DNA from: Sphingomonas sp.
Lineage (GTDB): Bacteria > Pseudomonadota > Alphaproteobacteria > Sphingomonadales > Sphingomonadaceae
Direction of reading: 5' to 3'
NCBI RefSeq assembly: GCF_024508665.1
Contig: NZ_JANINP010000006.1
Location: 1,230,001 to 1,294,000 of the forward strand
Length of the DNA: 64,000 bases
Numbering within the stretch: the stretch's first letter is position 1; each line of letters begins with the position of its first letter. The notes under the pieces were generated by a model. That model was not told the origin of the DNA. It did not search any database and worked only from the letters and a program-made list of their open reading frames with translations. The translations under genes were made by a program, and so were the position numbers. Shown piece after piece: positions 1-63,798 of this stretch.

Positions 1-1073
1 AGCATTATGGCGATCTGCGCGTTCTGGAACGTGCCTATCCGAGCATGAAGCGCTGGGTCCAGTATATCGATCGCCGCGTCGGGCCGGACCTCATCTGGGC
101 GCGCGACTTCCAGTTCGGCGATTGGCTCGACTATCTCTCCGTAACCCAGAACGAAGCGTTCGGAGCAACCCCGCCGCCTCTGGTCGCAACAGCCTATTAC
201 GCGCGTTCGACCAACATCCTCGCCAGGTCGGCGGTGTTGCTCGGGCGCGACGCGGATGCCGCTCATTATGCGGCGTCATTCGAGCGCATCCGTGAGGCGT
301 TCGTCGCGCGGTTCGTGGGCGAGGATGCGACTGTCCGGGGCAGCTCCGAGCGTGCGCCGTCCCAGGCAGGCTATGTCGTGGCGCTTGACTTCGATCTTCT
401 CCCCGAGGCCTTGCGGCCTCCTGCGGCGGCAAAGCTTGCCGCCGAGGTGCGCGCATCCGGCCATCTGACCACCGGCTTTCTCGGCACGCCGCGTCTGCTC
501 CCGGTGCTCAGTCGGTTCGGCTATAACGACGAGGCGTATGCGCTGCTCGAGCGGCGTGACGTGCCGTCATGGCTATATCCCGTTACCAAAGGGGCGACGA
601 CCATCTGGGAGCGCTGGGATGGGCTCTTGCCGGACGGCTCGCCCAAGCCAGACACCGACATGAACTCGTTCAACCACTATCTCTACGGCTCGGTCGGCGC
701 CTGGCTGTACGAAACGGTCGCGGGGTTGGGGCTCGATCCAGAACGGCCCGGTTACAAGCATATCCGCTTCGCGCCGCAGCCGGGCGGTAGCATTACGAGG
801 GCCAGCGCTCGTCATCTTGGTCCCTATGGACCGATTGCGATAGCATGGGAGCGGTACGACGAGCATTTCTCTTGTAGCGTCGACGTGCCTCCCAACAGCA
901 GTGCGACGCTGCGTTTTCCCTCGGCGGATCCAGCGCGCATCCGCGAGGGCGGCCGGCCGATCGCATCGTCACGAGACATCAGGGCGATCGTGCCGGGCGT
1001 CGATCACGTCCTGATCGAGTTCGGGTCGGGGAGCTTCGCATTCGACAATGAGCCGGGCAACGACCAGCAATGA
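1..1073 (+). CDS. Alpha-L-rhamnosidase (GH78), C-terminal part; 5' end outside window
   Basis: Releases terminal alpha-L-rhamnose from glycans or plant glycosides. The reading frame is open from base 3 upstream of the ATG listed at 45 (it reads HYGDLRVLERAYPSMK), so the gene starts before the window and the ATG is internal. Visible GH78 hallmarks are FQFGDWLDY, which belongs to the (alpha/alpha)6 catalytic barrel, GATTIWERWDG and NSFNHYLYGSVGAWLYE, followed by a small C-terminal beta domain with PGGSITRASA. About 356 residues of a protein usually near 900 are present. A GH43-like gene lies downstream on the same strand, suggesting a carbohydrate locus. No signal peptide can be judged. The family is confident; the exact substrate is not known. 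Confidence 0.9.
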   Translation, partial: HYGDLRVLERAYPSMKRWVQYIDRRVGPDLIWARDFQFGDWLDYLSVTQNEAFGATPPPLVATAYYARSTNILARSAVLLGRDADAAHYAASFERIREAFVARFVGEDATVRGSSERAPSQAGYVVALDFDLLPEALRPPAAAKLAAEVRASGHLTTGFLGTPRLLPVLSRFGYNDEAYALLERRDVPSWLYPVTKGATTIWERWDGLLPDGSPKPDTDMNSFNHYLYGSVGAWLYETVAGLGLDPERPGYKHIRFAPQPGGSITRASARHLGPYGPIAIAWERYDEHFSCSVDVPPNSSATLRFPSADPARIREGGRPIASSRDIRAIVPGVDHVLIEFGSGSFAFDNEPGNDQQ

Positions 1074-46205: not shown

Positions 46206-47318
46206 CTATGCCGGGTCCGCTTTGACTAGCGAATAGCTCGTGCTGCGCCCGCCGGCCTCGTCTCGTACGAGCACGCCTTTCTTGACTAGATCAACTATGT
46301 CTCGCGAGGCCGTATCCTGGGAAGCCTTGGTGAGCTTGGCCCATTTGCTGCTGGTCAGTTTTCCCTCAAACCCGTTCAGCACGCGATTGAGGACTTTGCG
46401 TTGCCGGTCGTTCATCACGACTTGGGCGTGCTTTTCCCAGAAGTGCGCTTTCTCGAGCACGCCGCCGAGCAATTGGTCGGCCTGAGCGATGGCGCGAGCG
46501 AGGCAGTCAAGGAACCAGTCGAGCCATGTGGTGATGTCGAGATCGCTCTTCTGGGTGCGTTCCAGCATGTGATAATAATCGGCGCGCTCAGTCCGGATTT
46601 GTGCGGACATGCTATAGAAGCGCTGCGCGCTATTCTCCGACCGCGCGAGTGCCATGTCGGTGATGGCACGCGCGATGCGCCCATTTCCATCCTCGAACGG
46701 ATGGATTGTGACGAACCATAAGTGCGCGATGCCCGCCTTGAGCACTTGGTCGATCCCCTGGTCTGCTTCGAACCAGGCAAGAAATGAGGCCATTTCCGCC
46801 GGGATCAGACCTGCAGCAGGCGCCTCGAAATGGATTTTTTCCCGGCCAAAGGGGCCCGAGACGACTTGCATCGGGCCGCCTGCGTCCTCGCGCCATGTTC
46901 CGACGACAATCTTGTTGAGGCCGCTGCGTCCTGTTGGAAACAGCGCTGCATGCCAGCTGAGCAATCGTTCCTCGGTCAAAGGCTCGGCATAACGCTGGGT
47001 TGCGTCAAGCATCATGTCGACGACGCCCTCTACGTCGCGATCGGCCGGGACCAGGCCCACCACGTCCATTCCCAGCCGCCGGGCAATGGACGATCGGACT
47101 TGGTCAAGATTGAGATGCTCGCCTTCGATTTCGGAGGATTTGAGCACGTCCGCAGTCAGTGTTTCCAGGACGGCTTCGCTGCGCAACTGGAAGCCGAGCG
47201 ATTCCATTCGGCCGAGTAGACGACCCTGGCTATGACGCACCCCGGCCAGGCGCGCGGCAAGCATGTTGAGGTTCCACCGCAGGTCGGGCCAGGCACCTAG
47301 TTCATGGATATAGGTCAT
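46206..47318 (-). CDS. Fic family protein (DUF4172-Fic, N-terminal inhibitory motif)
   Basis: A 370-residue Fic protein, normally an AMP-transferase. The N-terminal DUF4172 part (MTYIHELGAWPDLRWNLNML) is followed by the inhibitory helix with KSSEIEGEHL, fitting (S/T)xxxE(G/N), so the enzyme is self-inhibited. The catalytic motif is HPFEDGNGRIAR. A winged-helix-like C-terminus (LTKASQDTASRDIVDLVKKG then VLVRDEAGGRSTSY) may bind DNA. The ATG at 47318 is preferred to 47327 because of the N-terminus seen in relatives. The start codon lies inside the first operator repeat, pointing to tight autoregulation. Confidence 0.88.
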   Translation of the reverse strand: MTYIHELGAWPDLRWNLNMLAARLAGVRHSQGRLLGRMESLGFQLRSEAVLETLTADVLKSSEIEGEHLNLDQVRSSIARRLGMDVVGLVPADRDVEGVVDMMLDATQRYAEPLTEERLLSWHAALFPTGRSGLNKIVVGTWREDAGGPMQVVSGPFGREKIHFEAPAAGLIPAEMASFLAWFEADQGIDQVLKAGIAHLWFVTIHPFEDGNGRIARAITDMALARSENSAQRFYSMSAQIRTERADYYHMLERTQKSDLDITTWLDWFLDCLARAIAQADQLLGGVLEKAHFWEKHAQVVMNDRQRKVLNRVLNGFEGKLTSSKWAKLTKASQDTASRDIVDLVKKGVLVRDEAGGRSTSYSLVKADPA

Positions 47319-47416
47319 TCTCCGCATCCTTTGCGGAGAATATAGTCAATATTCTCCGCATGAAAAGCGATATTCACCGCAAAATCTGCGGCGATAATTC
47401 CTTATATTCTCCGCAT
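47317..47416. promoter_or_regulatory. Array of ATTCTCCGCA boxes upstream of fic
   Basis: Perfect inverted pair ATTCTCCGCA/TGCGGAGAAT (47317-47341) over the start codon. A single ATTCTCCGCAT lies at 47351 and another at 47406. Between them is an imperfect pair, ATTCACCGCA/TGCGGCGATAAT (47372 onward). In all, six half-sites occur in 100 bases. Binding by the Fic winged helix is inferred. Confidence 0.65.
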
Positions 47417-47544: not shown

Positions 47545-47862
47545 ACCAGGAACAGAGCGGGTGAGTAGTCCGCGCTCGGCGAGATTAGCCGTCAATTGCA
47601 TGATGCCCAACGTCCATCGCAATGCTACGGCCGAGCTGGTCACGCGACTTCCCAACGTGCCGAGCTTGAGTCTTGCGATCCGGGCGAAGTGGCGTTCCTT
47701 GGGGGTGAAGCCTTTGCCAGGCGCGTTCCTATCCTTAGTGGGCACGAACAACCTGCCCAGGAAATGCTGCGACGCCATCGGGATAATCGAGCTCGCTCAT
47801 TGTCTGGCGGACCGGTCTTGGGGCGACCGGCTGATCGCATGCATCGAACCCGTCCGCTCGCC
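47545..47862 (-). pseudogene. C-terminal remnant of a fumarylacetoacetate-hydrolase-family gene
   Basis: Pieces in two or more frames read SMHAISRSPQ, QTMSELDYPDG, then FVPTKDRNAPGKGFTPKERH and LTANLAERGLLT. They match the C-terminal third of the intact gene at 51622-52782 (SMRAISRSP, QTMSEHDYPDG, FAPTQDRDAPGMGFTHKEGD, LMANLAERGLLA). DNA similarity looks moderate, so this is an old paralogue stump, not a recent copy. Confidence 0.72.
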
Positions 47863-48246: not shown

Positions 48247-48426
48247 ATGACGCTCGCGCAGCGCAACGCAGAAATCCTCAAGCTCCTTGAGGAACAGACG
48301 AAGCGCAATTCCGCTTCGCCGGCCGCCGCGCGCGCGTCGCTGATCGCCGAAGGCATCTATACCAAGAAGGGCAAGCTGCGCGTCGAATATGGCGGCAAGT
48401 CGAAGAAGGGCGCCGTCGCGGCTTGA
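48247..48426 (+). CDS. Small basic protein, candidate antitoxin of the 48.2-49.0 kb pair
   Basis: A 59-residue protein: MTLAQRNAEILKLLEEQTKR (helix), then SPAAARASLIAEGIYTKKGK and LRVEYGGKSKK. An excellent AAGGAGG lies 9 bases before the ATG at 48247, so the longer track ORF from 48199 is not needed. Its stop overlaps the TTG start of the next gene by 4 bases. The sequence is not a member of an antitoxin family I can name. Size, order, strong ribosome-binding site and coupling to an ART-like gene suggest antitoxin or accessory function. Confidence 0.65.
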   Translation: MTLAQRNAEILKLLEEQTKRNSASPAAARASLIAEGIYTKKGKLRVEYGGKSKKGAVAA

Positions 48427-51621: not shown

Positions 51622-52782
51622 TCAAATCGCACTGAGAGGAGATGGGGCTGGCGAGGCGAGTAATCCTCGCTCCGCTAGGTTCGCCATCAATTGAGTGATG
51701 CCGAACCGCCATCGGGGGGCTTTCGCAGAACTCGTCACGCGATTTTCGAGCATGCCGAGCCTGGCGCTCGAAATCCGCACGCAATCGCCTTCCTTGTGGG
51801 TGAATCCCATGCCCGGCGCGTCGCGGTCTTGGGTGGGCGCGAACATCGTACCGAGGAACAGGGCAAAGCCGTCGGGATAATCATGCTCGCTCATTGTCTG
51901 GCGAACGAGCTCCCGTGGCGATCGGCTGATCGCACGCATCGAGCCCGTCTCCTCGAGGTAAAAACCGTCCTCGCCGCGAATGGTGAGCGAAAGCTCGGCA
52001 TCCAATAGGTCGTCGAGCGAGAAGTGCTCGTCGAACAGCCTGATGAAGGGGCCGATCGCGCAAGAGGCGTTATTGTCCTTGCCCTTGCCGAGGAGGAGCG
52101 CCGAGCGGCCCTCGAAATCCCGCAGATTCACGTCATTGCCCAAGGTCGCGCCGATGATCGCGCCGGCGGAGTTGCAGACGAGCACGATCTCGGGCTCGGG
52201 ATTGTTCCAATGGGAGTCCGAGCGCACGCCGATCTCCGCGCTATGCCCGACCGAGGCAAGCACCGGCGCCTTGGTGAAGATCTCGGCATCGGGCCCGATC
52301 GCGACTTCGAGATATTGCGACCACAAGCCTTCGGCGATCAGCACATCCTTCAGCCAAAAGGCCGTGTCGCTTCCGGGCACGACAGTACCGAGCTCGCCCC
52401 CGAGTTTGGCGCCGATCCTCGTTTCGATCGTATGGCGCAGTTCAGTCGCCTTGCTCGCGTCGCCGCGCGCACGCTCCTCGATGACACGTTCGATCATCGA
52501 CGCGGCGAAAGTGACGCCCGCCGCCTTGATGCACTGAAGGTCGATCGGTGAGAGAAGCGGTTGGCTCGCGAAATCGAACTCCGAGACCGGGCCGAGCGAG
52601 CGTCCTCTACCCTGGCCAGGATTGACGGGCTCGAGGAGTGCGGAAACCGTCGGTGCGATCCCCGAACAATCGAATACATTTTCTCCGATCACGGCGATCG
52701 GACTAGGACCGGCCTCGGTCAGAATGCGCCCAATCAAGGCGGCACGACCAAGGTCGGTTGGCAGATGATCCATGATGTTCAT
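51622..52782 (-). CDS. Fumarylacetoacetate hydrolase family protein
   Basis: A 386-residue FAH-superfamily enzyme, of the group that hydrolyses or dehydrates 2-keto-3-deoxy or 2,4-diketo-3-deoxy sugar acids. Metal-site and fold motifs: HWNNPEPEIVLVCNSAGAII (the E-x-E metal ligands), GATLGNDVNLRDFEGRSALL, GKGKDNNASCAIGPFI. The N-terminal 90 residues form the usual cap. It is divergent from the enolase/SDR genes; with them it would complete a non-phosphorylative route (dehydratase, dehydrogenase, hydrolase) to pyruvate plus lactate or glycolate. Substrate assignment is inference. A decayed paralogue lies at 47.5 kb. Confidence 0.82.
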   Translation of the reverse strand: MNIMDHLPTDLGRAALIGRILTEAGPSPIAVIGENVFDCSGIAPTVSALLEPVNPGQGRGRSLGPVSEFDFASQPLLSPIDLQCIKAAGVTFAASMIERVIEERARGDASKATELRHTIETRIGAKLGGELGTVVPGSDTAFWLKDVLIAEGLWSQYLEVAIGPDAEIFTKAPVLASVGHSAEIGVRSDSHWNNPEPEIVLVCNSAGAIIGATLGNDVNLRDFEGRSALLLGKGKDNNASCAIGPFIRLFDEHFSLDDLLDAELSLTIRGEDGFYLEETGSMRAISRSPRELVRQTMSEHDYPDGFALFLGTMFAPTQDRDAPGMGFTHKEGDCVRISSARLGMLENRVTSSAKAPRWRFGITQLMANLAERGLLASPAPSPLSAI

Positions 52783-53292
52783 GTGCTGTCGTTCGGCTCC
52801 CTGGTGCCTGGCCCCCCGGAAGGGGAAGCCCCTGCCGTTCAGTGGAGGAAACGTGTCGCGCTGGCGTCGCCCTCAAGCGGCGCGCTGGTCGGGTAAGGGG
52901 CATTAGAAACCGACGGCCGTCAGTCGCGCACCGCACAGACAGGATCGGGCGTCCCAGGCAATCGACCAGCATCTTCGCATGACGAACGTCCAGCAGTTCA
53001 GGGGCAAGCGGAGCCAAGTATCGCCCGCCTGTCACGATGATGCGGTCGAGCGGAATTCCGCTCATATAGGCCGTTATGAGCGGAATTCCGCATCACGCGG
53101 CTGGCAAGGAAAATTCTCAAAATCGACCAAAGTACGGTTACCAGGCCCGGCAAACGTTCCTGCCCCAAAGAACAAATCGCAGGAGGGGCGCGTGCCGATC
53201 ATTTCATCCGAGCTTCAAACAGGCCGCCTTGCCGATGGCGGCGGAAGCGTGCTGCATGCCGGCCGCAAGGACGTACCGCGAGCACTGGCGTC
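52783..53292. other. Divergent regulatory region between FAH gene and dehydratase
   Basis: About 510 bases without a recognised gene. It holds the operator-like palindromes at 53048-53093. Short ORFs here show no family resemblance. Confidence 0.45.
53048..53093. promoter_or_regulatory. Tandem GAGCGGAATTCCGC operator-like repeats
   Basis: GAGCGGAATTCCGCTC (53048-53063) is a perfect 16-base palindrome. The same core, GAGCGGAATTCCGC, recurs at 53078, 30 bases (about three helical turns) away. This fits a dimeric sugar-acid regulator controlling the genes on either side; no regulator gene is adjacent. Confidence 0.6.
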
Positions 53293-54507
53293 GTGACGCG
53301 CATCACCGCGATCGAGACGCTGCGTCTCGCCGAACATCCCAACGTCTTGTGGGTGCATGTCGAAAGCGACGACGGCGCCAAGGGCTTGGGCGAGACCTAT
53401 TTCATGCCCAGGGCTGTCGAGGCCTATATCCATGAATGGGCAGCGCCGCGGCTGATCGGTCAGAAGCTGGATTCGATCGAGCGGCTGGTGCGGACCCTGC
53501 GGCCCTATCTCGGCAACCGGTCCGCCGGCGTCGAAATGCGCGGCAACAGTGCGATCGACATCGCCTTGTGGGACTTGATGTCGCGCCTCGACGGCAAGCC
53601 GCTGGTCGACATGCTGGGCGGCCGGATGCGCGATACCCTGCGCATCTACAATACCTGCGCGGGCCCCGCTTACATGCGCGGTGCCACCGGCCAGCGCAGC
53701 GCCAATTGGGGTCTTGGGGCGGGAGGCGATTATGATGACCTCAACGCCTTTTTGACCCGTGCCGGCGATCTTGCCGAAAGCCTGCTCGACGAAGGCATCA
53801 CCGCCATGAAGATCTGGCCGTTCGACCAGGCGGCCGAGGCGCATGACGGGTTCGACATCGCGCCAGACGAATTGCGGGCCGCGCTCGAGCCGTTCGAGGC
53901 GATCCGTGCCCGTGTCGGCGACCGGATCGATATCATGGTCGAGTTCCATTCGCTCTGGACGCTGCCCCCTGCGCTCAAGATCGCGCGCGCGCTCGCCCCT
54001 TTTGCGACCTATTGGCACGAGGATCCCGTCCGGACCGACAATCTTTCGGACCTGCGCCGCTATGCCGAGGCGAGCCCGGCCCCCGTCTGCGCGTCCGAGA
54101 CGTTGGCCGGTGTCGCGGGATTCCGCGATCTGCTCGAGACCGGCGCCGCCGGGATCGTCATGCCCGACCTTTCCTGGTGCGGCGGGCTCGGCGAAGCGCG
54201 CAAGATCGCTATCCTGGCCGATGCCTGGCGACTGCCGATCGCGCCCCATGATTGTACGGGACCCGTCGTCCTTGCCGCCTCGACCCATCTCGGCCTCGCC
54301 AGCCCCAATGCGCTCATCCAGGAGACCGTCAGGGCCTATTATCGCGGCTGGTATCGCGACGTGGTCACCGCCGTTCCTCCAATCGCCGATGGCAGGATCG
54401 GCGTCCCCGACGGACCCGGCCTCGGCCTCGAGCTCGATCCCGATCTGGCCCGCAAATTCACGCTCACGCGCCAGCGCACCGACAAGGAGGGCCACCAATG
54501 CCTGTGA
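53293..54507 (+). CDS. Mandelate racemase/muconate lactonizing enzyme family dehydratase (enolase superfamily)
   Basis: A 404-residue acid-sugar dehydratase candidate. The N-terminal capping domain (TAIETLRLAEHPNVLWVHVE, EMRGNSAIDIALWDLMSRLD) precedes the barrel. AMKIWPFD carries the catalytic Lys; metal ligands lie in IMVEFHSLW, WHEDPV and CASETLAG, and the His of APHDCTGPV is the second base. The second Lys of the usual KxK is replaced by Trp (KIW), which sets it apart from classical mandelate racemases. Start GTG 53293. It overlaps the SDR gene by 10 bases. It likely dehydrates an aldonate to a 2-keto-3-deoxy acid; the sugar is unknown. Confidence 0.85.
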   Translation: MTRITAIETLRLAEHPNVLWVHVESDDGAKGLGETYFMPRAVEAYIHEWAAPRLIGQKLDSIERLVRTLRPYLGNRSAGVEMRGNSAIDIALWDLMSRLDGKPLVDMLGGRMRDTLRIYNTCAGPAYMRGATGQRSANWGLGAGGDYDDLNAFLTRAGDLAESLLDEGITAMKIWPFDQAAEAHDGFDIAPDELRAALEPFEAIRARVGDRIDIMVEFHSLWTLPPALKIARALAPFATYWHEDPVRTDNLSDLRRYAEASPAPVCASETLAGVAGFRDLLETGAAGIVMPDLSWCGGLGEARKIAILADAWRLPIAPHDCTGPVVLAASTHLGLASPNALIQETVRAYYRGWYRDVVTAVPPIADGRIGVPDGPGLGLELDPDLARKFTLTRQRTDKEGHQCL

Positions 54508-55259
54508 CGATCGATCTTGGCGGGCGCGTCGTCCTCCTGACCGGCGCCCTCGGATCGCTGGGCAGGGCCCAGGCCAGGCGCCTCGCCGAAGCGGGCGCAT
54601 CGCTCATCCTTCACGACCATCCCTCGAAGGCGGATCCGTCCTTCGCCAGGGAGCTTGCCGACCGATACGATACGCCATGCGCGTTCGTCGCTTTCGACCT
54701 CGGGGATCTCGCGCGCTCGAAGGACGAGGCCGCGGCGCTTTCCGACGCGCACGGCGGCATCGACATCCTCATCAACAATGCGGCGCTGATCGAGAACCGG
54801 CTGTTCGCCGAAACCACCATCGAGCAATATGAAGAGCAATTGCGCGTCAATGCCGCGGCCGCGTTCGCCTTGGCACAAGGCGTTGCTCCGGGCATGCGTA
54901 CCAAGGGGGGCGGGCGCATCATCAATTTCTGCTCGATCACGCTTAACGGACGCTGGACGGGCTACGCTCCGTACGTGATGTCCAAGGCTGCCCTGCACGG
55001 TCTGACCAAGGCGCTCGCGCGCGAGCTTGGTCCCGACAACATCCGGGTGAACGCGATCGCACCGGGCGCGGTCGTCTCGGATGCAGAAGCCCGCGTGTTC
55101 GGAGACCGCGCCGAGGAATATGCCTCCTGGGTACTCGACAATCAGTGCCTCAAGCGGCGCATCGAGCCGCACCATATCGCCGATGCCATCCTGTTCCTCG
55201 CGTCCGACCTTTCCGAAATGGTGAGCGGCACGATGCTCGACGTGACTGCTGGCTGGTGA
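54498..55259 (+). CDS. Short-chain dehydrogenase/reductase
   Basis: A 253-residue classical SDR. The cofactor motif is TGALGSLG, followed by NNAA, the catalytic Ser in NFCSITLNG, YVMSK (Tyr, Lys) and the PG motif in AIAPGAVV. AAGGAGG precedes the ATG at 54498, which lies inside the end of the dehydratase gene, so the two are coupled. A role as 2-keto-3-deoxy sugar acid dehydrogenase would fit the neighbours, though sugar or aldonate dehydrogenase activity is equally possible. Confidence 0.86.
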   Translation: MPVTIDLGGRVVLLTGALGSLGRAQARRLAEAGASLILHDHPSKADPSFARELADRYDTPCAFVAFDLGDLARSKDEAAALSDAHGGIDILINNAALIENRLFAETTIEQYEEQLRVNAAAAFALAQGVAPGMRTKGGGRIINFCSITLNGRWTGYAPYVMSKAALHGLTKALARELGPDNIRVNAIAPGAVVSDAEARVFGDRAEEYASWVLDNQCLKRRIEPHHIADAILFLASDLSEMVSGTMLDVTAGW

Positions 55260-55534: not shown

Positions 55535-56398
55535 CTATCCGCGTCCGCAGCGGACATAGCCGCCGAGCGCGGCGATAAGGCTGCGGCCGATCCGGTAGCT
55601 TGCCGCAAGATCGCCTTCGGCGGTCATCAGTCCGTCGAAATAGCTGGCGAGGCTTGCGATCTTGAGATCGAATACTTGCCGCAACTGCTTGTCGGGATTG
55701 CTGATCCAGCGGCCGTCATGGTCCTTGGCGACGACATAATAGCCAACGATCATCGCCCCGTAACGAAAGGCGAGGCGATTGACGATGTCGTTCCTGTCTG
55801 CCGTTGCGACCAATGGCGCAAGGCCGGCCGCTTGGGTCAGCTCCTGGGCTAGGTCGAACGCCATCGCGCAGGTCTTGCGCTGCAACGGACCCGACATCGG
55901 ACGCCGGTTCGACACCATGCCGCGCAACTCGCGGCGCTCGCCCGCGGTCAGGATGTCGTCGGCTTGCTTCAACCGCACGATGAGATTGGCGGCCGATCGC
56001 GCTAGCGCGTCGCGCAATTCCCTGGCCTGGACCTCGAGCGGCGCGACGTGATCCACGATCTCGCTGGTCGGCGCGACCTCGATCACCGTGCGGCAATAGG
56101 CCCCGAACTGACGTGTCTCGTCCGGGCTGACCAGCCGGTTGACGAGACCCTTGCCGCGCCCGGTGAGTGCGATCAGCTGGTCGGTGCTGCGCAGGATGAC
56201 GACCTGCCGGCTATATTGGCAGCAGATCCGCAACGCTTGCTGGATGGTCCTGAGCGCATCGCGCCGGTGGAGTTCGATCATCGTCGGATGCGCGATGACC
56301 GCGATGTTGGTCTTTCGCGCCCCGAGCCATCGCGCCAATTCGGGCTTTTCCAGGTAATTGGTGTCGATCACCCGGCGATCGAGATCGCGTTGGCTCAT
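55535..56398 (-). CDS. PIN-like domain protein, possible nuclease
   Basis: A 287-residue protein. RRVIDTNYLEKPELARWLGA, then IAVIAHPTMIELHRR, resembles the first two acidic motifs of PIN-domain nucleases (DTNxL and an E after a hydrophobic strand). Later acids, as in LVATADRNDIVNRLAFRYG, may complete the site. The rest is helical, with no family name I can give. It follows the PLD-type nuclease gene by 45 bases on the same strand. A two-nuclease pair suggests DNA or RNA defence, but this is inference. Confidence 0.55.
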   Translation of the reverse strand: MSQRDLDRRVIDTNYLEKPELARWLGARKTNIAVIAHPTMIELHRRDALRTIQQALRICCQYSRQVVILRSTDQLIALTGRGKGLVNRLVSPDETRQFGAYCRTVIEVAPTSEIVDHVAPLEVQARELRDALARSAANLIVRLKQADDILTAGERRELRGMVSNRRPMSGPLQRKTCAMAFDLAQELTQAAGLAPLVATADRNDIVNRLAFRYGAMIVGYYVVAKDHDGRWISNPDKQLRQVFDLKIASLASYFDGLMTAEGDLAASYRIGRSLIAALGGYVRCGRG

Positions 56399-56443
56399 GC
56401 GCGGCCGCTTTCGCCGATCGAGGCGGCGAGCGCCGGCCTTCCT

Positions 56444-57652
56444 TCAGGGGTTGTAGAATATCGCATCGAGCATGGCCGCGCGGCATTCCCATAACGGGCC
56501 GTCGCCGGTGTCGGGCTTGTCGACATTATACCAGTCGGCGGCGCGGATCGCCCCGACGACAAGGTCCCAATAGTTGTCGAGATCGAGTGCCCGCTTGGCG
56601 AACCCCAATTGCTTGGAGGCGGCCGCGATATTGGGCCCGCATACGCACAGGAATATGTCCGGGCGCTTCATCGCGAGCAGCCTCGACGCCGTCGCGACCC
56701 CGCCCGTCCGCTGCGAATGATCGAATGCCTTGCGGAACAATCGTACGAACCGGTCGTAATGCGCGCGCTCGACCTCGCCGCGTTGCGGGATGCTGTCGAG
56801 CGCACGCGCAAGCGAGCGGTCGTTCACCACTATCCGGTTCTTGAAATCGCCGGCGCCGCGCATCGACCCGAACCATCCCCAGTCGCGGTCGAGCTCGGAA
56901 TCGGTCTTGTCCTTCCTGCCGATGATCCCGGCGATCGCCTTGCGCCGCGCGACCGCAAGATCGTGGAACGACCTGACGCCGGCGAGCCAGGACTGGGCGA
57001 TCGCGAGAAGATCGAGGCTGGCCTCGATATCGTGATGCTCCGAATTGCGGATAGCGTCGGCGTAATCCTTCCATGCCATGGCCGCGAGCGGGAGCGACAG
57101 CGCCTTGATCGTGCCGGCCGGCACATCCGCCAGCGGGTCGCGCGGCAGGCGGGGTTTGGCAGCCGCACGCCGGTGGGCCAGCCTATATCGTGCGGCGAGG
57201 GCAGGGGTGACCGCCTCGCCCAAGGCGGCGCTGCGCTCTGCAAAGGCAAGCGCGTCGGCAAGCGGGCCCTCGTCCGCTTTTCCGGATATAAGGACTGCTG
57301 CCTCATGATTGCTGCCAAGGCCGCCACGCGTGAAGTTCGCGCTCCCGACAAGGGCCGCAGCGCGTTTGCCGGTGCGAAAGCCATAGACTTTGGGGTGATA
57401 GGTGCCGCCCGGAAACGCCGTCACGACACTCGCGCCCTTGATGCCGGTGAGCGCGTCGACCAGGTCCGGATCGGTCTGGGCGAAGGCGAGACCGAACGTC
57501 ACGGCACGAAATTTGGCGCGGTTTGCGAGGAGCAACGGGGTCAGATCGTTGGCCGTGCCCCAGGCAACGGCCCAATGATATTCGTCATGCTCCGCCATCA
57601 GCCGGGCGAGCGTCCGCTCGACCGCCTTTCCGTCCACAAACTCGATTTCCAT
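56444..57652 (-). CDS. Phospholipase-D-type nuclease family protein
   Basis: A 402-residue protein with one HKD-like site: YHPKVYGFRTGKRAAALVGS followed by ANFTRGG, the H-x-K...G-S-x-N arrangement of PLD-fold nucleases such as BfiI/NgoFVII-type enzymes, which dimerise to form one active site. The N-terminal domain (EYHWAVAWGTANDLTPLLLA) is PLD-like. The C-terminal about 240 residues (from LAIAQSWLAGVRSF) are of unknown fold with LAMKRPDIFLCVCG. No methyltransferase or helicase lies in the window, so it is not a standard restriction system. Together with the PIN-like gene downstream it forms a two-gene unit. Confidence 0.7.
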   Translation of the reverse strand: MEIEFVDGKAVERTLARLMAEHDEYHWAVAWGTANDLTPLLLANRAKFRAVTFGLAFAQTDPDLVDALTGIKGASVVTAFPGGTYHPKVYGFRTGKRAAALVGSANFTRGGLGSNHEAAVLISGKADEGPLADALAFAERSAALGEAVTPALAARYRLAHRRAAAKPRLPRDPLADVPAGTIKALSLPLAAMAWKDYADAIRNSEHHDIEASLDLLAIAQSWLAGVRSFHDLAVARRKAIAGIIGRKDKTDSELDRDWGWFGSMRGAGDFKNRIVVNDRSLARALDSIPQRGEVERAHYDRFVRLFRKAFDHSQRTGGVATASRLLAMKRPDIFLCVCGPNIAAASKQLGFAKRALDLDNYWDLVVGAIRAADWYNVDKPDTGDGPLWECRAAMLDAIFYNP

Positions 57653-57813: not shown

Positions 57814-58722
57814 TTAGATGCCGGGCAAATCGATGGACGTCTTTTCCGCTTGCTGGCGCAGAAGATCGCAAAATGCCTCGTCCGGGACCGGCTCGGCGAC
57901 CAGCGTGCAGATCGCGACTTCGCTCATGAGCTCGAATGCGAGCGGCCGTATCGCCAGCGAGCGCCGGTATCGGGCGGCGATCGCCTGGTCGACGATCGTG
58001 ATCGCCTTGCAGCCCGAAAGCATCATTTCGCAGGCCGCCAATTGCGTGCGCACCGTCGCCAGGACGCGCAACGGAACGGGCCGCGCTTGCGCCAAGGCAT
58101 TCTGCAATTTCAGCCGATAGGGGCTGTCCGGCGGCAGCGCGATGACGTCATGATCCGCAAGATCGGCGGTCTCGATCGCCGGCCTTTGTGCCAATAAATG
58201 ATCATGGGGCATGACCGCCACCATCGGCGTCGAGCGGAGCGATCGCCAGGCGATCGCCGCATCCGCATGGATCGGGACCGCGATGCCGAGATCGAACCGC
58301 CGGCGGCGCACGCCGTCGATAATGGCGGACGTGTTCAAGACGTCGAACTCGATCCCGGTATTCGGGTTCGCCGCAAGGTAGCGCCCGAGCGCGGGCGCCA
58401 CGATGGTTTCGGCGAAAGCCGGCATCGCTGCCACGCGCAATTGGCCAAAGCGCATGTCGCGCAACATGATCGCTCGTTCGCGGACGGCCGCCATGCCGAG
58501 ATAGACGCGCTCGATCTCGTCATAGAGCAATTGCGCCCGACGCGTCGGACGCACGCCGCGACCCACGCGCTCGAATAATGGAAACCCTATCTCGATCTCG
58601 AGATCGGCGACGAGATGGCTGATCGCCGGCTGGGTGACGCATAATTGCCGTGCCGCAGCCGACATGGATCGCAGCGCAACGGTCGCCCGGAAAGCCTCGA
58701 TCTGCCGATCGTTCAATCGCAT
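57814..58722 (-). CDS. LysR-family transcriptional regulator
   Basis: A 302-residue LysR protein: N-terminal winged HTH (LNDRQIEAFRATVALRSMSA, AARQLCVTQPAISHLVADLE) and a two-lobed effector domain (VAAMPAFAETIVAPALGRYL, VAVMPHDHLLAQRPAI). It is divergently arranged with the exporter/lyase/transporter operon, with an 82-base gap that must hold the shared promoters. It is expected to activate that operon in response to its substrate or a product. It resembles the regulators placed beside cysteate/sulfonate genes, but specificity cannot be read. Confidence 0.86.
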   Translation of the reverse strand: MRLNDRQIEAFRATVALRSMSAAARQLCVTQPAISHLVADLEIEIGFPLFERVGRGVRPTRRAQLLYDEIERVYLGMAAVRERAIMLRDMRFGQLRVAAMPAFAETIVAPALGRYLAANPNTGIEFDVLNTSAIIDGVRRRRFDLGIAVPIHADAAIAWRSLRSTPMVAVMPHDHLLAQRPAIETADLADHDVIALPPDSPYRLKLQNALAQARPVPLRVLATVRTQLAACEMMLSGCKAITIVDQAIAARYRRSLAIRPLAFELMSEVAICTLVAEPVPDEAFCDLLRQQAEKTSIDLPGI

Positions 58723-58804
58723 AAGCGCTATATGCGAACTTCTTATAATAACATGTCAAGGAATAAATTGTCCTTAGATATTGGTCGGCGCTACCCATGA
58801 GTTC

Positions 58805-59581
58805 ATGGCTGCGCCGCTCTTCCTGCCGCTCCTTGCGATCGCTTTCGCCGGCGCCTTTGCGCAGTCCTCGACCGGCGTCGGGTTCGGCGTGGTTGCAGGC
58901 CCCTTTCTGGTCAGGGCGCATGGCTATGAACGCGCCATCGCCGAAACCGTCCTGTTCAGCCTGCTCGTGGCCCTTATCTCGGCCGCGCGGCAATTCGCGC
59001 ACCGCGACACCCGGGCGACGCGTTCGCTGCTGCTGACCTTGCCGGTGGGCGTGCTGCTCGGCGGCATTGCCCTTCGACTGGTCCCGCAGCGGCTCATCAC
59101 CCTGATCTTCGGACTGATATTGTCCGCGCTTGGCTGCCTCCTGCTGGTGCGTTCGGTGGCTGGCACGCCGCGCGCGGCACTGGACGAGCGTTGTGAGGCG
59201 CGTGGCGCCGGTACCCGGCGGCTCGCGATCGGCGGTGTCGCGGCCGGGGCGGCGGCCTTGCTCTTTGCCGCACCCGGCCCTGCCGCTGCCTGGGGGCTGG
59301 CGGGCAAGGGGCTGCCGGCGGATGCCGTGCGAGGCACGCTTGCCGCCTATTTTGTCGCCGCATACGGCCTCATCCTCGTCACCCTTGCGGCGACCGGCGC
59401 GATGGCGGGGCTGGACTGGATCTTCATCGGCGCGGCCGCTGGCGCGAGCGGCCTCGGCGCGGTCGGCGGTCTCATCACCGGCAAGCGATTTTCCGCCGGC
59501 CTCCTCGATGCCGCGATCGCCCTGGTCGTCGCTGCCTCCGGGCTCATGATGCTCAGTCCCTTGTTGCGGGAGGTCCTATGA
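58805..59581 (+). CDS. TauE/SafE-family anion exporter (probable sulfite exporter)
   Basis: A 258-residue membrane protein with about eight helices (LFLPLLAIAFAGAFAQSSTG, GFGVVAGPFLVRAHGYERAI, LLTLPVGVLLGGIALRL, LITLIFGLILSALGCLLLV). The GVGFGVVAGP motif is typical of TauE/SafE proteins, which export sulfite or sulfoacetate. It overlaps the PLP lyase gene by 4 bases, matching cuyZ-cuyA of cysteate-degrading bacteria. The ATG at 58805 begins at the first helix; the TTG at 58781 in the track is a weaker alternative. Confidence 0.8.
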   Translation: MAAPLFLPLLAIAFAGAFAQSSTGVGFGVVAGPFLVRAHGYERAIAETVLFSLLVALISAARQFAHRDTRATRSLLLTLPVGVLLGGIALRLVPQRLITLIFGLILSALGCLLLVRSVAGTPRAALDERCEARGAGTRRLAIGGVAAGAAALLFAAPGPAAAWGLAGKGLPADAVRGTLAAYFVAAYGLILVTLAATGAMAGLDWIFIGAAAGASGLGAVGGLITGKRFSAGLLDAAIALVVAASGLMMLSPLLREVL

Positions 59582-60672
59582 CATCCGCGACACTCGAGGC
59601 GCGGCTCGCCGCCCTCCCGCGCGTCCGGTTCCTGCCCTGGGCGACGCCGATCGAACCGCAGCCGGGCCTGAGCCGCCTTCTCGGCATCGATCTCTTGATC
59701 AAGCGCGACGATCTCACCGGCCTCGCCTTTGGCGGCAACAAGGTCAGGCAACTCGAATTCTATTTCGGCAAGGCCATCGCCGAGGGCGCCGATACCGCGC
59801 TCATCACCGGCGCCGTCCAGTCCAATTATGTTCGCGTCGCCGCGGCCTGCGCGGCGCGGCTCGGCATGCATTGCCATATCCAGCTCGAGGAACGCGTAAG
59901 CGGCGTCGACCAGACCTACCGCTCCTCGGGCAATGTCCTGTTGAGCCGGTTGCTGGGAGCTGTCCTCCATAGCTACCCGGCGGGCGAAGACGAGGAAGGC
60001 GCGGATCGCCGGCTTGGCGAGATCGCGGCGGAACTCGAGCGGGAAGGGCGCCGCCCGTTCGTCATCCCGCTCGGCGCCGGGCAGCCGCCGACCGGCGCGC
60101 TCGGCTATGTCTGCTGCGCACTGGAACTGCTCGGCCAGGCGCGCGACTTCGATCGCGTCGTCATCGCCTCTGGCAGTGGCCACAGCCATGCCGGCCTGTT
60201 GTTCGGGTTGCGCTTCCTAGGATGGCGCGGTCCCGTCCATGGGATGTGCGTGAGGCGCGGCGCGGCGCTCCAGCAGGAGCGCATCCTTCGCCATTGCAGC
60301 CAGCTGAGCGTGATCGTCGGTGACGGCGCGACCATCGGGCCCGAGGACGTTCTCCTCCATGACGACGTCCTGTCGCCCGGTTACGGTGTCGTGAACCCCG
60401 AGGTCGAACGCGCCATCCGTGCCTGCGCGTCGCTCGACGGCCTCCTGGTCGACCCGGTCTATACCGGACGCGCGATGGCGGGGCTGATGCATTGCGTCGC
60501 CGATGGCACGATCACGTCCGGCGACCGTGTCCTCTTCGTCCATACAGGGGGTCTCCCGGCCTTGTTCGGCTATGCCCGGGACCTCGGGCCGCTGCTTACG
60601 CCAAGGGATGGCGCCTTCCTCAGCGCCGGACGGTCGGGTCCGCCTCTTCCGATGGGTGCCGCGTCACGATGA
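59578..60672 (+). CDS. PLP-dependent sulfur amino acid lyase (cysteate sulfo-lyase / D-cysteine desulfhydrase / ACC deaminase family)
   Basis: A 364-residue fold-type II PLP enzyme. The PLP lysine is in FGGNKVRQLEF; GSGHSHAGL forms the phosphate loop; LLVDPVYTGRAMAGL and HTGGLPALFGY complete the site. The conserved SNH of D-cysteine desulfhydrase and cysteate lyase is SNY here, a change next to the catalytic base that may alter specificity. The product would be pyruvate, ammonia and either sulfide (DcyD) or sulfite (CuyA). The coupled exporter upstream favours sulfite. The SBP gene overlaps its end by 4 bases. Confidence 0.8.
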   Translation: MTSATLEARLAALPRVRFLPWATPIEPQPGLSRLLGIDLLIKRDDLTGLAFGGNKVRQLEFYFGKAIAEGADTALITGAVQSNYVRVAAACAARLGMHCHIQLEERVSGVDQTYRSSGNVLLSRLLGAVLHSYPAGEDEEGADRRLGEIAAELEREGRRPFVIPLGAGQPPTGALGYVCCALELLGQARDFDRVVIASGSGHSHAGLLFGLRFLGWRGPVHGMCVRRGAALQQERILRHCSQLSVIVGDGATIGPEDVLLHDDVLSPGYGVVNPEVERAIRACASLDGLLVDPVYTGRAMAGLMHCVADGTITSGDRVLFVHTGGLPALFGYARDLGPLLTPRDGAFLSAGRSGPPLPMGAASR

Positions 60673-61577
60673 GGCCGCTCCTTCTCGTCCTTCTCTTGTG
60701 CTCGGGTTGTGCGAGCGCGGATGCGGGCGAGACGGCGATCGCCCGCATCCGGCGCACCGGCGTCGTGACCATCGGGTATCGCGAAGCCGCCATTCCCTTT
60801 TCCTTTCGCGACCGCGATGGCCAACCGGCCGGTTATTCGGTCGATCTGTGCCGGCGCGTCGTCGATCGGCTGCGCCACGCGCTCGCCATGCCGGCAATCG
60901 GCATCCGCTACACGCCGGTCACGCCGGCAACGCGGATTCCGCTGGTCGCCAATGGCGGCATCGATCTTGAATGCGGAACCACGACCAACACGCCACAACG
61001 CGCCCGGCAAGTGGCGTTCGCCTATACGCATTTCATCGCCGGCATGACATTCGTCGCGCGTGCCGATGCCGGCCTCGCCTCGCTTGGCGACCTGCGCGGC
61101 AAGATTGTCGCAAGCAACGCGGGCTCGACCAGCATCGAGCGGCTTTACGCGCTCAACCGGACGGCGGGGCTCGGGCTCACCATCCTGACCGCACGGGATG
61201 TCGGCCAGGGCTTTCTCCTCATGACCACCGGACGCGCGGCGGCTTTCTTCAACGATGATGTCGTGCTGGACGCGCTGGTCGCCAATGCGCAGGATGGTCA
61301 TACCTATCGCATCTCGGCCCAATCGCTGTCGGTCGAGCCCTATGCGATCATGCTCCCCAAGGGCGATCCCCAATTCCAGCGCCTGGTCGACGACGCGTTG
61401 CAGCGGGAATTTGCCAGCGGCGCTGCCGCAGCCCTCTATCACCACTGGTTCGAGCGGTTAGTCGGGCCGCGCCGGATCAATCTCGCCATGCCGATGAGCG
61501 CGGCACTGCGCCGCGCCTTTGCCAATCCGGCGGCCGTGTCGCGGCGGTCTGACATGCCTGTCGAACAGCGGCCATAG
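60669..61577 (+). CDS. gltI: Glutamate/aspartate-type amino acid ABC transporter, binding protein (GltI-like)
   Basis: A 302-residue periplasmic binding protein. The leader (MRPLLLVLLLCSGCASADAG) may be a lipoprotein signal, but its box (CSGC) is not standard. The mature protein shows the GltI pattern: VVTIGYREAAIPFSFRD, GIDLECGTTTNTPQRARQVA, IVASNAGSTSIERL, RAAAFFNDDVVLDAL, SVEPYAIMLPKGDPQF and a C-terminal NLAMPMSAALRRAF. GltI binds L-glutamate and L-aspartate; cysteate is a sulfonate analogue of aspartate, so the pocket could suit it. ATG 60669 overlaps the lyase stop. Confidence 0.85.
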   Translation: MRPLLLVLLLCSGCASADAGETAIARIRRTGVVTIGYREAAIPFSFRDRDGQPAGYSVDLCRRVVDRLRHALAMPAIGIRYTPVTPATRIPLVANGGIDLECGTTTNTPQRARQVAFAYTHFIAGMTFVARADAGLASLGDLRGKIVASNAGSTSIERLYALNRTAGLGLTILTARDVGQGFLLMTTGRAAAFFNDDVVLDALVANAQDGHTYRISAQSLSVEPYAIMLPKGDPQFQRLVDDALQREFASGAAAALYHHWFERLVGPRRINLAMPMSAALRRAFANPAAVSRRSDMPVEQRP

Positions 61578-61580
61578 GCG

Positions 61581-62318
61581 ATGCGATACCAATGGAACTG
61601 GTCGGTCTTCCTCGAAGCCTCTCCCGAAGGCACGCAGACCTATGCCGGCCTCTTGATGTCCGGCCTTGCCTGGACGGTGCTGACAGCGCTCGTCGCCTGG
61701 GCGATCGCCTTCGTCCTGGGGTCGGCGATCGGCGTCGCCCGCTCGCTGCCCCGGCGCCCGATATTGGCGTCGGCGGCTGCCGCCTATGTGGAATTGTTCC
61801 GCAACGTCCCGCTCCTTCTCCAATTGTTCCTCTGGTATTTCGTCCTGCCCGAGCTCTTGCCCGAACCGTTGGCCGGATGGGTCAAGCACCTGCCCTATGG
61901 TTCCTTCTGGACGACGGCTCTGGGCCTCGGTCTCTACATGGCCTCGCGCCTAGCCGAACAGGTACGCGCCGGTCTCGCCGCGGTGGGCGCAGGGCAGTTC
62001 GCGGCAGCGCGCGCGCTCGGGCTTGGCACCGCGCAGATCTACTGGCGCGTCGCCATGCCGCAAGCGTACCGGATCATCTTGCCCACGCTCACGTCCGAGT
62101 TCCTGAACACGATCAAGAACAGTTCGGTGGGGCTCGGCATCGGTCTGCTCGAACTGACCGCGCGCGCCCAATCGATCCAGGAATATTCCTCGCAAGTGTT
62201 CGAGGCCTTTGCCGCGGCCACCATCCTCTATCTCTTGCTCAACGCCCTTGTCACCGCCGCCGGGCGCGCGCTGGAGAAGAGGATCGCCATCCCGGGGATG
62301 GAGGCGGTGCTGCGATGA
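61581..62318 (+). CDS. gltJ: Amino acid ABC transporter permease (GltJ-like)
   Basis: A 245-residue His/Glu/Gln-type permease with five or six helices. YQWNWSVFLEASPEGTQTYA is the GltJ-like N-terminus; YVELFRNVPLLLQLFLWYF is the conserved entry segment, and the EAA loop appears as QFAAARALGLGTAQIYWRVA. It begins 3 bases after the SBP stop and overlaps the second permease by 4 bases. The two permeases form a heterodimer in the inner membrane. Confidence 0.86.
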   Translation: MRYQWNWSVFLEASPEGTQTYAGLLMSGLAWTVLTALVAWAIAFVLGSAIGVARSLPRRPILASAAAAYVELFRNVPLLLQLFLWYFVLPELLPEPLAGWVKHLPYGSFWTTALGLGLYMASRLAEQVRAGLAAVGAGQFAAARALGLGTAQIYWRVAMPQAYRIILPTLTSEFLNTIKNSSVGLGIGLLELTARAQSIQEYSSQVFEAFAAATILYLLLNALVTAAGRALEKRIAIPGMEAVLR

Positions 62319-63010
62319 CGCTCGATTTCTCGATCATCGGGGTCTCCTTTCCCTATCTGTTCCTCGACGGGATGCGGCTTACCCTCGAGCTGACGATCGT
62401 CGGCGCCTCGGGCGGGCTGGTGCTCGGCACGCTGGTCGCGCTGCTGCGCGGCTCGCGCCGTCGCCTGGTCCGGTTGGGAGCGACGCTCTACGTCGACGTC
62501 CTTCGGGCACTGCCCCTCATCCTGATCATCTTCTGGTTCTATTTTCTCGCGCCCTTCGTCGCGGCCGCCCTGATGGGCGGCGGCACGCCGCCCGCCATCG
62601 GCGCGTTCACGTCCGCCATCCTCGCCCTAATCCTCTTCGAAGGCGCTTATTTCTGCGAGATCGTGCGGGCCGGCATCCAGGCCGTCCCCAGCGGCCAGGT
62701 CCGGGCCGCGCTCGCGCTTGGGCTGTCGCCGGCAAGAACGATGCTGCTCATCGTCCTTCCCCAGGCCTTTCGCCACGTCGTCCCGATCCTCCTGACCCAG
62801 GTGATCGTGCTGTTCCAGGACACGTCGCTCGTCTCGGTCATTTCCCTCACCGATTTTCTCGGTGCGGCCTCCAATGTCGCCGAGCGTGACGGACATATCG
62901 TCGAACTCTATCTGACGGCAGCGCTCACCTATTTCACGATCTGCCTGTCGCTCTCCCTCGTCGTCAGGCGCCAGCAGCGGCGCCTGGCCGTTCGCGCCCG
63001 CATAGGATGA
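62315..63010 (+). CDS. gltK: Amino acid ABC transporter permease (GltK-like)
   Basis: A 231-residue permease: [20 protein letters not shown] (first helix), [19 protein letters not shown], and the EAA loop [38 protein letters not shown] signature is typical of the GltK branch. ATG 62315 overlaps the first permease stop (ATGA); its own stop overlaps the ATPase start. Confidence 0.86.
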
Positions 63011-63798
63011 CGCCGATGTCCCGACCGTCCCTGACCTATCCGGGCAAGACAGCCGCCTCGGCAGAACGGCCGATGATAGAATTGGCCGGCGTCGACAAAT
63101 GGTTCGGTACGTTCCAGGTGCTCAAGGGGTGTTCGGCAACCGTGGCGCGCGGCGAGGTCGTCGTCCTGTGCGGCCCTTCGGGCTCCGGCAAATCGACCCT
63201 CATCAAATGTATCAACGCGCTCGAGCCGGTGAGCGGAGGGAACATCACACTGGACGGAGAGCCGGCGACCGGCGCAGGCGACCTGCCCCGGTTGCGCGCG
63301 CGCGTCGGCATGGTCTTTCAGCAATTCGAACTCTTCTCCCACCTGCGGATCATCGACAATCTCTGCCTCGCCCAGCAGAAAGTGTTGAAGCGCAGCCGCG
63401 CGGAAGCGGAAGCGCGGTCGGACGACCTCCTCCAAAGGTTCGGTCTCCTCGATCATCGCCGCAAATATCCCGCCCAGCTTTCCGGAGGGCAGCAGCAGCG
63501 CGTCGCCATCGCCAGGGCGCTCGCCATGGATCCCGTCGCCATGCTGTTCGATGAGCCCACCTCCGCGCTCGATCCCGAAATGGTCGGTGAGGTGCTCGAT
63601 GTCATGGTCGGCCTCGCCACGAGCGGCATGACGATGATGGTCGTGACTCACGAAATGGGGTTCGCTCGCAAGGTCGCCGACAGGATCCTCTTCATGGACC
63701 GGGGCGAGATCGTCGAGGAGGCAACCGCGCAGGACTTCTTCGAACGGCCCAAAAGCCTCCGGGCGGCGGAATTCATCAAGAGCATCGGGGCGGGATGA
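63007..63798 (+). CDS. gltL: Amino acid ABC transporter ATP-binding protein (GltL/GlnQ-like)
   Basis: A 263-residue ATPase: [19 protein letters not shown] core start, Walker [11 protein letters not shown]-loop VFQQFELF, signature [13 protein letters not shown], Walker [13 protein letters not shown] and H-loop VTHEMGF. Relatives begin near MIEL (ATG 63076). The frame is open from ATG 63007, which overlaps the permease stop, so there may be a 23-residue extension. It powers import by the two permeases. Confidence 0.88.

Follow-up and report, generated by a model that had tools for sequence, protein, structure and literature searches.

A Sphingomonas locus in which an enolase-superfamily dehydratase, a short-chain dehydrogenase, and a divergent XylX-type protein probably form part of a Weimberg-type pentose branch

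A stretch of 64,000 nucleotides from Sphingomonas sp. (contig NZ_JANINP010000006.1, positions 1,230,001 to 1,294,000; hereafter the window) contains three neighboring genes that encode an FAH-fold protein, an enolase-superfamily dehydratase, and a short-chain dehydrogenase/reductase (SDR) (Table 1). Pfam matches confirm these three superfamilies and the open reading frames (ORFs) that carry them, which an earlier note on this DNA had proposed as a non-phosphorylative sugar-acid route ending in pyruvate and L-lactate. Because the start codon of the SDR gene overlaps the stop codon of the dehydratase gene and AAGGAGG lies just ahead of it, the two genes look translationally coupled. The FAH-fold gene is divergent from this pair, an orientation that the note omitted.

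The FAH-fold protein aligns over nearly its full length (residues 3-375; 455.6 bits) with the FAH-family protein of PDB 9kkt, which is presumably Caulobacter XylX. Its score against the archaeal 2-keto-3-deoxy-D-arabinonate dehydratase KdaD (PDB 2q18) is 78.8 bits, and it has no NCBIfam match. Within the genome, its closest relative (66% identity) is the XylX at C6:591.8 kb, whose gene precedes those for an SDR, an SMP-30 lactonase, and a sugar transporter in a Weimberg-type arrangement. Dehydratases of the FAH fold that act on 2-keto-3-deoxypentonates have a specific glutamate, whereas diketo-acid hydrolases have a His/Glu pair (Watanabe and colleagues, PMC6336799). In the window protein, E167 aligns with the glutamate of the KdaD motif PEIFFKA and is conserved, as are E196 and E198, which align with the metal-ligand PEPE motif of KdaD, and a search for the hydrolase motif [NTS][YFW]xxHxxE in this protein found none. 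Because it scores with the XylX family, has the glutamate, and lacks the His-x-x-Glu motif, we assign the protein by family and residues as a putative dehydratase rather than a hydrolase: a XylX/COG3970-type 2-keto-3-deoxypentonate dehydratase, paralogous to the genome's Weimberg XylX and predicted to form 2-oxoglutarate semialdehyde. The possibility that its gene is a pseudogene was rejected, as the protein keeps 117 of the 118 columns that are invariant among 36 relatives.

The dehydratase belongs to the mandelate racemase subgroup of the enolase superfamily, with two domains (PF02746 and PF13378), metal ligands E217, E243, and E269, and the dyad D292-H319. These residues, together with K173 and H219, match the set of E. 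coli DgoD in an alignment. Identity to DgoD is 30%, and the protein scores below the cut-offs of the NCBIfam galactonate dehydratase (DgoD) model (181.5 bits; cut-off 311), the L-rhamnonate dehydratase model (110 bits; cut-off 393), and the archaeal D-arabinonate dehydratase model (122 bits; cut-off 650). Its closest solved relatives are PDB 2pod (584 bits), 4dx3 (548 bits), and 3dip (337 bits). According to a 2022 review, no structure was known for any enolase-family aldopentonate dehydratase (PMC9795676).

The earlier note had read KIW in place of KxK and suggested that the sugar may differ from known ones. The tripeptide is indeed present (K173-I-W175), and it is common to all aligned relatives except DgoD, which has KLN, and to 2pod, 4dx3, and 3dip, so it is best taken as a mark of this enolase family and not as a peculiarity of the window protein. 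KxK at the second barrel strand is likewise absent from the window dehydratase, its relatives, and DgoD. In the enolase superfamily, 2S substrates are deprotonated by the second lysine of KxK and 2R substrates by the His-Asp dyad. Because the second lysine is missing while the dyad is present, we predict that the dehydratase acts on a 2R pentonate, for example D-xylonate or L-arabinonate, and not on L-fuconate or D-arabinonate.

In the SDR, S146, Y159, and K163 are invariant, as are T15-G16 and G22 of the glycine-rich nucleotide motif, which places it among the classical SDRs. It scores 166.8 bits against the NCBIfam D-xylose 1-dehydrogenase (XylB) model, below the cut-off of 400. Its identity is 35% to the SDR encoded in the Weimberg-type cluster of this genome, compared with 25% to the SDR of the rhamnose cluster. 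Rhizobial SDRs whose genes adjoin aldose 1-epimerase are 53-58% identical to it. Because a lactonase and this mutarotase (aldose 1-epimerase) accompany the SDR orthologues, the SDR is probably an aldose 1-dehydrogenase that oxidizes C1.

Gene neighborhoods were compared around dehydratase relatives at 80 genome loci and several plasmid loci. At 11 of the 80 genome loci, all with dehydratases at least 54% identical to that of the window, a XylX gene is no more than 8 kb away; at the loci with more distant dehydratases, none is. The 11 loci come from some five lineages and are therefore not independent counts; as a rough estimate from one to two XylX genes per genome, fewer than one such locus, by a wide margin, would be expected by chance. 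The dehydratase of Mesorhizobium, Rhodobacter, Sinorhizobium, and Shinella is accompanied by a lactonase, FadR, a sugar ATP-binding cassette (ABC) importer, and a 51-61% identical SDR relative, after which aldose 1-epimerase often comes, and at a Rhodobacterales locus (L053) an ORF resembling an aldehyde dehydrogenase comes after XylX. The best evidence that the three families serve one pathway is plasmid pT173d of Ensifer canadensis, where a single run comprises a lactonase, FadR, the dehydratase, a sugar ABC importer, the SDR, aldose 1-epimerase, and, at its end, a XylX-type gene whose product is 54% identical to the window XylX. The binding protein of the sugar ABC importer had no match in the PDB at 1e-20. 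In Peteryoungia, XylX is also a neighbor of the dehydratase relative, and a binding protein of a tripartite ATP-independent periplasmic (TRAP) transporter beside that relative has its best PDB match in 7bbr (269 bits), which presumably is CxaP. The sugar acids bound by CxaP are D-xylonic, D-fuconic, D-galactonic, and D-gluconic acid (PMC12076931), and 7bbr has been cited as a sugar-acid-binding homologue with bound 2-keto-3-deoxy-D-gluconate (PMC11668362). The predicted use of a 2R acid agrees with this 7bbr-like protein.

Dehydratase orthologues at an E-value of 1e-100 were found in 0 of 400 other genomes of the same family, so that one genome of 401 has the dehydratase. At 1e-65, the SDR occurs in one other genome among 372 of the class, and that genome carries the dehydratase as well. 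Horizontal transfer is the probable origin of the dehydratase-SDR pair. In phylogenies, which the earlier note had suggested as a check, the window dehydratase falls inside an alphaproteobacterial group that holds most of the SDR- and XylX-linked members (support 100/97), and the window XylX groups with other XylX proteins of the genus, separately from those linked to the dehydratase. The pair and XylX thus seem to have different histories. Joint arrival of XylX and the dehydratase is unsupported by the XylX tree, for which the program warns of long branches, the window row among them.

A 16-bp palindrome occurs twice between the divergent genes, at a spacing of 30 bp, and the two copies together form a perfect 17-nt inverted repeat. 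The 14-bp core, allowing up to one mismatch, occurs at three sites in the 4.64-Mb genome, all inside 4.8 kb, a clustering that is notable; with two mismatches, the core is no commoner than a reversed control. In 29 related genomes, the region upstream of XylX has no copy with up to one mismatch, and neither does the vicinity of the relatives' dehydratase genes. The third site lies near a relic of a second xylX gene that is 74% identical in DNA to positions 51655-51955 of the window xylX over 302 bases, and no longer similarity surrounds this site. The tandem palindrome may be a shared operator of both divergent units.

Table 1. Positions of the three genes and of other features in the window.
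Feature	Position	Strand	Details
FAH-fold protein gene (XylX-type, COG3970)	51622-52782	minus	386 aa; PF01557 34 bits (cut-off 23.9)
MR/MLE enolase-superfamily dehydratase gene	53293-54507	plus	404 aa; GTG start; PF13378 207 bits, PF02746 49 bits
SDR gene	54498-55259	plus	PF13561 180 bits; ATG 54498
Candidate shared operator, two palindrome copies	53048-53063 and 53078-53093		GAGCGGAATTCCGCTC and near-copy; between the divergent genes
Third palindrome near-copy	48302-48315		1 mismatch; ~440 bp 5' of the xylX relic
Decayed second xylX fragment	47560-47860	minus	C-terminal, codons 277-380; one internal stop
GH78 alpha-L-rhamnosidase, cut short	45-1073		catalytic domain matches only from profile position 127

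The protein families, active-site residues, gene arrangement, and conserved neighbors lead us to infer the reactions, their order, the sugar, and the regulation, and suggest that the locus probably supplies three steps of a pentose branch that is oxidative and non-phosphorylative (Weimberg-type, Route II). In this process, the SDR would oxidize an aldose at C1 to a lactone, which a lactonase encoded elsewhere in the genome would open to the aldonate. The dehydratase would then remove water across C2-C3 to give a 2-keto-3-deoxypentonate, a reaction in which the dyad His319-Asp292 would act as the base and His219 as the acid. A second dehydration, by the XylX paralogue, would yield 2-oxoglutarate semialdehyde. 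An aldehyde dehydrogenase encoded elsewhere, for which the gene at C7:735 kb is a candidate, would complete the route to 2-oxoglutarate. The acquired dehydratase-SDR pair would thus have been placed opposite a resident-type XylX, possibly under control of the shared tandem-palindrome operator. The proposals of a non-phosphorylative sugar-acid route and of a possible link between the three genes in the earlier note are supported by this analysis.

Several points weigh against a Weimberg-type branch. No lactonase, importer, or semialdehyde dehydrogenase gene lies beside the three genes at the locus, and none of the three proteins reaches a curated NCBIfam cut-off. Because the XylX gene points away from the dehydratase gene and its product groups with XylX of the genus rather than with the dehydratase-linked proteins, their linkage here seems to have been assembled separately, and may be due to chance. 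In addition, a betaproteobacterial clade has the dehydratase with a TRAP importer and galactonate-type kinase-like genes, mostly without XylX, and because of these neighbors members of the dehydratase family may act on hexonates. If the window dehydratase did so, the link to XylX would fail, since XylX would give no semialdehyde.

In a different account, the dehydratase and SDR act on a hexonate or 6-deoxyhexonate (D-galactonate, D-fuconate, or D-gluconate) and XylX is a chance neighbor that serves a D-xylose route. The galactonate-dehydratase-like active site and the genus-type XylX would fit this account, as would the betaproteobacterial neighborhoods, which also include an IlvD-type dehydratase and ORFs like 2-keto-3-deoxygalactonokinase and gluconokinase. 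We consider it rather unlikely, however, as XylX recurs near the dehydratase in several lineages, once in one run with the SDR, and the window dehydratase sits within the XylX-linked clade. It is improbable that the locus instead serves Route III for pentoses, with the SDR oxidizing 2-keto-3-deoxypentonate at C4, a separate hydrolase yielding pyruvate and glycolate, and XylX competing for the intermediate. Herbaspirillum huttiense does have Routes II and III together (PMC6336799), but the mutarotase and lactonase beside SDR orthologues suit C1 oxidation, and there is no hydrolase nearby.

Sugar-acid genes also lie elsewhere in the genome. A second oxidative pentose-type cluster (L165, C7:726-737 kb) includes an IlvD/EDD dehydratase (C7:731 kb), an AraD1 protein that matches GguC at 497 bits (cut-off 340), and an aldehyde dehydrogenase. 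At C7:774-793 kb lies what is by gene content an L-rhamnose diketo-hydrolase cluster: the gene for an FAH-fold hydrolase is accompanied by those for an SDR, a candidate lactonase of the amidohydrolase type, an enolase-family protein, a complete GH78, and an FMN-dependent dehydrogenase. Its FAH protein (C7:782 kb) scores 471 bits against the 2,4-didehydro-3-deoxy-L-rhamnonate hydrolase model, just below the cut-off of 500, and carries the His-x-x-Glu motif as NFADHAAE. The earlier note's own route, in which the dehydratase, the SDR as a C4-dehydrogenase, and the FAH protein as a hydrolase convert L-rhamnonate or L-fuconate to pyruvate and L-lactate, agrees with the three superfamilies and with the GH78 that does lie in the window, but it is highly improbable here, because the GH78 is ~50 kb from the three genes with many others in between and so provides no evidence for it, the window FAH protein is XylX-type and lacks the hydrolase motif, the SDR and dehydratase resemble their rhamnose counterparts poorly by the identity and score given above, the route is encoded by the C7 genes, and none of the 85 loci that surround relatives of the window dehydratase has a relative of the C7 hydrolase.

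More tentatively, and with somewhat more doubt than confidence, we propose that the enolase group of 2pod, 4dx3/4dxk, and, further off, 3dip comprises bacterial 2R-aldonate dehydratases, of which an alphaproteobacterial branch feeds XylX. XylX would then have been recruited separately on more than one occasion into a Weimberg-type route with an enolase-type enzyme replacing IlvD/EDD. Under this proposal, a family of dehydratases that has solved structures but no function in its PDB names would gain a role that can be tested. The analysis also puts right a plausible misannotation: an FAH-fold protein encoded next to an enolase-type dehydratase can be either a hydrolase or a XylX-type dehydratase, which a single motif separates and whose end products differ.

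Other parts of the window hold different kinds of genes. Just 3' of the SDR gene, at 55535-57652, are two minus-strand genes, one with a weak PLD/NgoFVII-like match below the cut-off and the other without a Pfam match. These are followed at 57814-63798 by a LysR regulator, a TauE/SafE exporter, a pyridoxal enzyme near the D-cysteate sulfo-lyase CuyA (324 bits, below the cut-off of 450), and an amino-acid-type ABC importer, possibly a cysteate-type sulfonate degradation operon. At 46206-47327 is a Fic-domain protein with DUF4172. Five large ORFs in the region 7839-44949 resemble one another in DNA sequence; the one checked has TonB-receptor plug and STN domains, and several are adjoined by ORF pairs resembling sigma factor/anti-sigma genes.

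The locus resembles the Weimberg pathway of the Caulobacter type (xylXABCD) in its XylX-type dehydratase, SDR sugar dehydrogenase, and presumed semialdehyde product. In contrast, its aldonate dehydratase is from the enolase superfamily and not IlvD/EDD, and the lactonase and semialdehyde dehydrogenase are not adjacent. The D-arabinose pathway of Sulfolobus similarly uses an enolase-type dehydratase followed by an FAH-fold dehydratase, KdaD, to form 2-oxoglutarate semialdehyde. Its enzymes are not orthologous to those described here, as the low arabinonate-model and KdaD scores indicate; its sugar dehydrogenase is a medium-chain enzyme rather than an SDR, and D-arabinonate is a 2S acid, not expected as a substrate of the window dehydratase. 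The L-rhamnose/L-fucose diketo-hydrolase route shares an enolase-type dehydratase, an SDR, and an FAH-fold protein with the locus, but the window FAH-fold protein is, by residues and family, a predicted dehydratase, and that route is encoded elsewhere in the genome. Among solved structures, the closest dehydratase relatives, PDB 2pod, 4dx3/4dxk, and 3dip, likewise have KIW and carry superfamily-level names only in the PDB copy searched. The rhizobial dehydratase cluster, for which we found no characterization and which includes XylX in E. canadensis pT173d, has the same three protein families, 53-59% identical to those of the window, and differs in that all its genes, among them those for an importer, an epimerase, and a lactonase, lie together.

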